A stretch of DNA of 11,230 nt from Candidatus Eiseniibacteriota bacterium. Lineage in GTDB: Bacteria; Arandabacterota; Arandabacteria; JAGLYR01. The stretch spans positions 1 to 11,230 of the forward strand of contig JAGLYR010000222.1 of NCBI GenBank assembly GCA_023132135.1, written 5' to 3'. The notes under the pieces are model-generated. The model was not told the origin of the DNA, ran no database searches, and saw only the letters and a program-made list of their open reading frames with translations. Shown piece after piece: positions 4,722 through 9,310 of this stretch. Positions within the stretch are counted from its first letter, which is position 1, and every line of letters starts with the position of its first letter. A program made the translations under genes and the position numbers.

Positions 4722-4819
4722 GCACACTTCCGGCGGGGATGCAACCCATCAGCCTCTCGACCAGTCCAGAGAGCCAACGGTTCTCTCCCCTTCACCCCCG
4801 CGCGGCTAACAAGAAATCG

Positions 4820-4859
4820 GTGTTGTGTCCCCGATTGCCGTGTTGTGTCCCCGATTGCC
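4820..4859. repeat. Tandem duplication of a 20-bp unit
   Basis: The unit GTGTTGTGTCCCCGATTGCC occurs twice back to back without mismatch (4820-4839 and 4840-4859). On the minus strand each copy contains GGGGACAC, the kind of core seen in REP-like extragenic repeats near Y1/RAYT transposases. It lies between two divergent genes, 14 bases upstream of the -35 of the plus-strand promoter. Confidence 0.85.
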
Positions 4860-4872
4860 CAGCACGCCCACA

Positions 4873-8596: not shown

Positions 8597-8602
8597 ACCT
8601 CC
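8597..8602 (-). promoter_or_regulatory. Ribosome binding site of the GH97 gene
   Basis: The minus strand reads GGAGGT, ending 5 bases before the ATG at 8591. It selects this start over the upstream in-frame start at 8672. Confidence 0.7.
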
Positions 8603-8645
8603 CGTGATAGGAATCAACGGTTCCGTCCGCAACAGGTCTTCGGAA

Positions 8646-8674
8646 ACAATAGGTCATCTGCGATTCGATCACAA
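8646..8674 (-). promoter_or_regulatory. Weak candidate promoter of the GH97 gene
   Basis: On the minus strand TTGTGA (8669-8674) and TATTGT (8646-8651) are 17 bases apart, each 4 of 6 to consensus. The inverted repeat of the small mobile element begins only 7 bases upstream of the -35. The match is modest and could be chance. Confidence 0.3.
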
Positions 8675-8681
8675 CTGGGGG

Positions 8682-8699
8682 TTCTGGGGACAGACTACT
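8682..8699. repeat. Terminal inverted repeat, left copy
   Basis: Reads TTCTGGGGACAGACTACT and is the reverse complement of 8945-8962 at 16 of 18 positions. It lies about 23 bases after the stop codon of the transposase remnant, upstream of the GH97 gene. Confidence 0.75.
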
Positions 8700-8722
8700 G
8701 AACTCAGAACTCTCTCCGAGCG

Positions 8723-8956
8723 CTATTTCCAGGAGTTGAATTTGGGCTTAGCGGTAGGGCCTGTCTTGCGCGGCCGGAGAACCTGCCCGAGCATGTCCTC
8801 CAGACGATGCACGAATTCTTCGCTGCCCCAAGGACGCCCGGTGTGAGTCCGTTGCCGGATGACCTTGAGAGTCTCCTCGCTCTCCGATGTGACCACCTGG
8901 CCCTTACCGTACAGAAACCGGCCAACCCGGTCAAGATCCCATTTAGTAGTCTGTCC
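8723..8956 (-). pseudogene. C-terminal remnant of a REP-associated (IS200-like, Y1) transposase
   Basis: A minus-strand frame running from 8956 to the TAG at 8723-8725 encodes 73 recognisable residues from KWDLDR onward. The signature RTHTGRPWGSEEFVHRLEDM followed by LGQVLRPRKTGP is the conserved end of the TnpA-REP / RAYT family (usually RTGRPLGSEEFV..LE..LGR.LRPRK.G). The HUH motif, the catalytic Tyr and the whole N-terminal half are missing. The frame is closed by TGA at 8957-8959 inside the inverted repeat, and no suitable start codon exists before an internal Met about 50 residues in. The remnant is not expected to give a functional protein. It is too short and startless for ordinary gene calling. 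Confidence 0.85.
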
Positions 8957-8962
8957 TCAAAA
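8945..8962. repeat. Terminal inverted repeat, right copy
   Basis: Reads AGTAGTCTGTCCTCAAAA and pairs with 8682-8699. It directly abuts the first transposase-like codon (AAA at 8942-8944), marking the deletion junction. Confidence 0.75.
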
Positions 8963-8976
8963 ACTCTATTGCCTGC

Positions 8977-9005
8977 TCGACATCCTTGCGTACAAATGTT
9001 ATAGT
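8977..9005 (+). promoter_or_regulatory. Sigma-70-like promoter, probably of the 9311 gene
   Basis: TCGACA (8977-8982) and TATAGT (9000-9005) are separated by exactly 17 bases, each 5 of 6 to consensus. It starts 15 bases beyond the right inverted repeat of the small element. If it drives the gene at 9311 the leader is about 300 bases. Confidence 0.5.
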
Positions 9006-9310
9006 CCTCGGTGCTGGACATCTCAGAATATCCAAAGATATCCAAGGGGAGGGCAGGCGGACGGTACCCAATACACAACGAAATGGAACTTCCAGCAGAC
9101 GTGGAGCGAGCAGGCGACACACTGATCACGAGCCGTTCTAGTCCATAGACGGGTGTCGGGCTTGCGGCGGCCGGCGAGGATTGTCACTTTGGCCGCCACA
9201 AGTGCTTTGTCTGTTATCCACGTGAGGCCTGAGGCGCGGGAGCACCGCCGGGGGCCAGCCGCCGGGGGAAGAGCTGAAGAGACCAGGACTTCTCACGAGG
9301 GGGGATTGAC
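9006..9310 (+). other. Long untranslated leader upstream of the 9311 gene
   Basis: I find no gene here with a ribosome site and family resemblance. The stretch contains a possible hairpin, GGCGGCC (9166-9172) with GGCCGCC (9191-9197) and an 18-base loop, and a direct repeat of CCGCCGGGGG (9245-9254 and 9259-9268). It ends in a G-rich Shine-Dalgarno (GAGGGGGG). No known riboswitch is recognised. Confidence 0.4.

Follow-up and report, generated by a model that had tools for sequence, protein, structure and literature searches.

A 281-bp unit at positions 8682–8962 of the window, the 11,230-nt stretch of DNA analysed here, raises the question of whether a miniature element has been born from an autonomous transposon and, if so, from which kind. 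The preliminary description took it for a clean snapshot of a MITE-like element arising from a RAYT transposase gene. Our analysis identifies it as a TIRtron shortened by deletion, of an ordinary kind. In the direction of the gene, the unit consists of the 5′ repeat, a leader, 53 codons, a stop codon and the 3′ repeat, and its features are as follows.

8942–8962, minus strand: terminal inverted repeat on the upstream (gene 5′) side, TTTTGAGGACAGACTACTAAA, at which homology with a second unit, on contig C301, also stops
8885–8941, minus strand: untranslated leader of what was the transposase gene, with homology to the C301 leader and no protein homology
8877–8883, minus strand: AGAGCGA at the proposed deletion junction, present twice in C301, 168 nt apart
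8726–8884, minus strand: 53 codons left from the C-terminal part of TIRYT (ESEETLK...GRPWGSEEFVHRLEDMLGQVLRP...NSWK), from protein comparison
8723–8725, minus strand: stop codon of the transposase remnant
8682–8702, plus strand: terminal inverted repeat on the downstream (gene 3′) side, TTCTGGGGACAGACTACTGAA

The two repeats, of 21 nt each, are complementary at 18 of 21 positions and share a perfect 12-nt core, GGACAGACTACT. Near-perfect inverted repeats do bound the unit, as had been described, and an ungapped inverted repeat as good as this one occurred in one of 150 dinucleotide shuffles of 8600–9050. No target-site duplication was evident at the element. Long windows hold many inverted repeats (85 pairs were counted here), and a pair could have fallen by chance beside a degraded transposase gene. 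This explanation is scarcely credible in view of the shuffles, of the motif GGGACAGACTACT, which with at most one mismatch occurs at 17 sites in the window's own genome versus four for the reversed control, and of the sibling on C301 and other elements in which the same motif forms the ends. The repeats were compared with GGGGWSAS, the TIRtron inverted-repeat consensus (Di Nocera 2013, PMC3733652). The fit is GGGGACAG at 8686–8693, and the opposite end, GAGGACAG, has one mismatch; the 5′ end is mutated, with GAGGACA in place of GGGGACA.

Between the repeats, the minus strand codes for the C-terminus of a Y1 transposase, and the catalytic part of TIRYT is missing. The observation in the preliminary description was partly right: the repeats and the transposase tail held, and the "last 73 codons" joined directly to the upstream repeat did not. 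Only about 53 codons (8726–8884) derive from the transposase, with protein homology starting at residue 22 of the 72-residue reading, and the approximately 20 "codons" adjoining the repeat are the untranslated leader. A Pfam search with the 141-aa open reading frame of the window gave zero matches. The leader contains a promoter-like TTGACC at 8934–8929 and a weak −10 element, TACGGT, at 8911–8906; the C301 leader has TTGACT and TATGCT separated by 17 nt, and roughly half of the full-length relatives inspected have TTGAC shortly after the 5′ repeat. These motifs suggest a promoter function for the leader.

The parent type was sought with profiles for the N-terminal/catalytic part and the C-terminal part, run over 193 genomes. 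At approximately 17 loci in other genomes, full-length TIRYT genes sit between significant GGGGACA-type repeat pairs; most loci with a full-length gene have such a pair, and the elements are ~750–960 bp long. Examples are G002 and G007, which belong to the class of the window's genome. In a further genome, G146 (locus L058), a 231-aa gene has AGTTTTAGGGACAGACTACGAAACTTTT at both ends, and the 28-bp end pair contains the core of the window repeats, GGGACAGACTAC. The 72-residue window reading is homologous to the G146 protein at residues 22–68 only (45% identity), and the C301 reading matches it over 66 residues (50% identity), including DWSAWL upstream. The full-length relatives that match the fragment at the C-terminus have ~219–253 aa and contain Pfam Y1_Tnp; two of them scored 69–70 bits against NCBIfam REP_Tyr_transpos, below the cut-off of 80. 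TIRYT genes have been placed in TnpA_Y1 subclass 2.1 (Quentin 2018, PMC6006769). By its gene and by the fit of its ends to GGGGWSAS, the window element can be classed as a deleted member of the TIRtrons. The name RAYT is thus correct in the broad sense only, the parent being of the TIRYT/TIRtron type (subclass 2.1) and not a REP-flanked RAYT. Full-length relatives with equivalent ends, one of them with the same repeat core, support the earlier suggestion of an internal deletion.

The window's own genome (3.4 Mb in 345 contigs, 96% complete) was searched with the region, and a second unit was found on contig C301. The window copy (C138) and the C301 copy share homology over exactly the span bounded by, and including, the repeats; their flanks are unrelated. 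Because both C301 repeats carry a 3-nt insertion (GGGGACATCAGACTACT and GGGGATATCAGACTACT), the two ends of each element resemble each other more than those of the other element. The stretch 8885–8941 is homologous at the DNA level to the leader behind the C301 upstream repeat (74% over 89 nt, repeat included). Specifically, C301 has one copy of AGAGCGA in the leader and another in the late coding region, and the window element has a single copy, at the junction. After removal of the stretch between the two copies, C301 aligns with the window element in 243 of 300 columns. A deletion between short direct repeats (microhomology deletion) would be expected to leave such a pattern, and in the longer sibling the leader and coding parts that flank the deletion can both be seen. 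Since the extra 168 nt of C301 include coding sequence of TIRYT as well as a leader hairpin that C155 shares, we infer from this one longer sibling that the window copy lost the stretch. The earlier expectation of further copies with the same ends was borne out in so far as C301 is related; the window's own junction is found in no other copy. A deletion junction common to C138 and C301 was considered and dropped, as the leader is what both have and the window junction is unique to the window copy. As a separate observation, the leader of the former transposase gene in C301 and C155 (L004, ~1660–1730; L113) contains a GC-rich hairpin with a run of T behind it (CGACCGGCGG...CCGCCGGTCGTTTT), which looks like a terminator or attenuator.

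Over 51 shared codons, the window copy and C301 show 14 differences, distributed 3, 2 and 9 over the first, second and third codon positions; by a simple binomial reckoning, the chance of at least nine third-position differences is ~0.02. The excess suggests that the two copies diverged while coding, probably as working genes, and therefore that their deletions were separate events in two full-length insertions. With separate coding parents, the window copy need not have moved as a miniature: its deletion may have taken place at the present site, and it may never have been mobile in its short form. We lean towards a deletion after rather than before arrival at the site. The open frame and the predominance of third-position differences would also agree with a small gene kept for its own sake, such as a stand-alone C-terminal domain acting as a transposition repressor. 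We consider this highly improbable, as the N-terminus is not common to the fragments of this family, some other C-terminal fragments contain stops, and the length kept varies by copy.

We therefore favour, with good confidence, a reading in which a TIRtron was inserted and its catalytic part was lost by deletion between two AGAGCGA copies, before or after arrival, leaving a unit that is now non-autonomous. The TIRtron, namely a TIRYT-type Y1/HUH tyrosine transposase gene between hairpin-forming GGGGACA inverted repeats, would have been inserted at the site, presumably by the single-strand mechanism of Y1 enzymes, and the parent would have been a full-length TIRYT element with GGGGACAGACTACT ends. 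Deletion between the AGAGCGA in the leader and that in the late coding region, here or already earlier, would have spared the two ends together with the leader and the final 53 codons. Any later move of this unit would need a full-length transposase acting on intact ends. The full-length gene between such repeats that the preliminary description called for exists in other genomes, with the same core in G146; in the 345 contigs of the own genome, profile searches found no intact TIRYT gene, an absence that may be an effect of the assembly, and mobilisation in trans is therefore put forward as a proposal.

The own genome contains many decayed relatives, and the element is accordingly neither unique nor a clean newborn. 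The profile searches yielded 16 C-terminal fragments versus six matches to the N-terminal profile, the best of which is partial. In most of the 16 fragments, a GGGACA-type end follows the domain within 24–91 nt, and in roughly half a matching end lies upstream; fragments with such ends include those on C301, C39, C155, C212, C181, C46 and C152. In C46 and C181, the first ~20 codons are fused to the last ~25, and homology stops at the repeats. Three further miniatures (C54a, C54b and C214) have a common junction, GAGCGACCGG joined to CTGGAG, at different sites. The flanks of loci L122 and L124 are alike, and some common junctions could reflect segmental duplication.

Several other arrangements were noted. 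The ~125-bp unit in C152 (L106; C152:6505–6640) has two end types, GGGACATCAGACTATT and GGGACAGAGCCCC, which suggests recombination between end families. At C304:8152–8400 (L011, ~1650–1905), the GGGGACAGACTAC end occurs twice in direct and once in inverted orientation around 97-bp repeated units; this cluster, which holds no transposase sequence, can be described as REPIN/BIME-like. The window itself contains two further candidates.

4808–4860, minus strand: solo end (GGGACACAACACCGATTTC) from a second family of TIRtrons, matching the ends of the internally deleted C46 and C181
11174–11190, plus strand: possible solo end (AATAGGGGTCAGCGGGG) belonging to a further family, occurring downstream of the C-terminal fragment of C190 as well

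In the former, a 20-nt core, GTGTTGTGTCCCCGATTGCC, is duplicated in tandem after GAAATCG, and the corresponding C46/C181 end is GGGACATAACACCGATTTC. The latter fits GGGGWSAS and lies near the contig end; its matches in the own genome total five versus four for the reversed control, so that only exact matches are suggestive. In addition, the contig start (1–56), downstream of where a large gene ends, carries a perfect inverted repeat of 25 bp around a 6-nt loop, which is probably a transcription terminator.

Comparable miniatures were found in other genomes: a 336-bp tail-only unit in G031, a 329-bp unit in G038 with 26 N-terminal residues and the C-terminus, and, in another lineage (G062), a set of ~160-bp units with the last ~20 codons. 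Two of the last set (C275 and C103) are 88% identical, and their homology ends close to the repeats. Common junctions at different sites suggest that some miniatures elsewhere moved after deletion. The window element might likewise be a true MITE, already short when a transposase copied it here in trans; the G062 pair and the C54a/C54b/C214 set lend this some weight. We nevertheless judge it rather unlikely for the window copy, since no other copy carries its junction, its differences from C301 suggest separate coding parents, and segmental duplication could account for some of the common junctions. Deletion from a full-length TIRtron thus remains our preferred origin. Most fragments were recovered with a C-terminal query, and we make no claim of a general bias towards the 3′ end of the gene; among inverted-repeat pairs of the repeat pattern in the fetched sequence, five of seven loci retain the C-terminus, numbers too small to support one.

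To characterise the ends, 21 of them, one per element, were aligned on the invariant GGGACA. An eight-pair stem with a nine-nt loop, GGACANNNN, was paired in 73% of cells versus 55% after shuffling. The covariation score was 0.438 versus 0.169 for shuffled alignments, with none of 500 shuffles as high; with the partner displaced by one to three columns, it was 0.08–0.23. The stem had been selected on these very sequences, and relatedness is not taken into account by the shuffles. These values support, rather than prove, that TIRtron ends are hairpins with covarying stems. As single DNA ends, some relatives fold well and others weakly or not at all. In the window element, the 3′ end forms an imperfect hairpin together with flanking bases, and the 5′ end does not fold alone.

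TIRtrons appear to show the intermediates side by side: full genes, internal deletions, tail-only units and solo ends. As a tentative generalisation, which we judge somewhat less likely than not, TIRYT elements in unrelated lineages may recurrently yield miniatures with GGACA-loop hairpin ends and the last 20–60 codons, in a series from transposon to REPIN-like repeat that would begin with deletions between short direct repeats. We regard this wider pattern, in which hairpin-ended miniatures that keep gene tails recur in several lineages, as moderately interesting.

Compared with known systems, the element resembles bacterial MITEs in being a short non-autonomous unit with the ends of an autonomous parent, formed by internal deletion. 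The designation MITE-like is apt in that the 281-bp unit has the terminal repeats of its parent type, seen in relatives with equivalent ends, and no complete transposase; several copies of one internal structure at different sites were found for other miniatures and not for this one. The best-known bacterial MITEs derive from DDE transposases, whereas the parent here is of the Y1/HUH type and no target-site duplication is evident. Of the earlier interpretation, internal deletion with both ends kept stands, and direct joining, a clean newborn and, in the strict sense, a RAYT parent do not.

The likeness to TIRtrons lies in the Y1 transposase of the relatives, with NHVH and YVExNP-type motifs, in long flanking inverted repeats fitting GGGGWSAS, and in repeats that are also dispersed or clustered in the genome; the window copy differs in having lost the catalytic core. 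Deletion derivatives that keep the gene tail are not described in the parts of PMC3733652 and PMC6006769 that were searched. No REP-like structure was reported for subclass 2.1 (PMC6006769), whereas the repeats compared here form putative covarying hairpins; self-complementary tracts have been noted in some TIRtron repeats (PMC3733652).

With REPINs and BIMEs the element shares two inverted, putatively hairpin-forming ends, a non-autonomous nature and a putative dependence on a Y1 transposase in trans (PMC3116915). REPINs are pairs of REPs without transposase sequence, whereas the window element retains part of the gene. Its type of end also seems to lack the conserved GTAG tag of the REP-RAYT system: REPs have GT[AG]G at the foot of the hairpin, whereas the conserved part here is the GGACA loop, and the GTAG string in AGTAGTCTGTCCCC is not conserved among relatives. 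Bertels and Rainey (2011, PMC3116915) proposed that REPINs derive from sequences flanking an ancestral element. TIRtrons bear on this question, the origin of REPINs and similar hairpin-pair repeats from Y1-transposase transposons, and their putative REP-like hairpin ends make the idea testable by ordinary single-strand cleavage assays.
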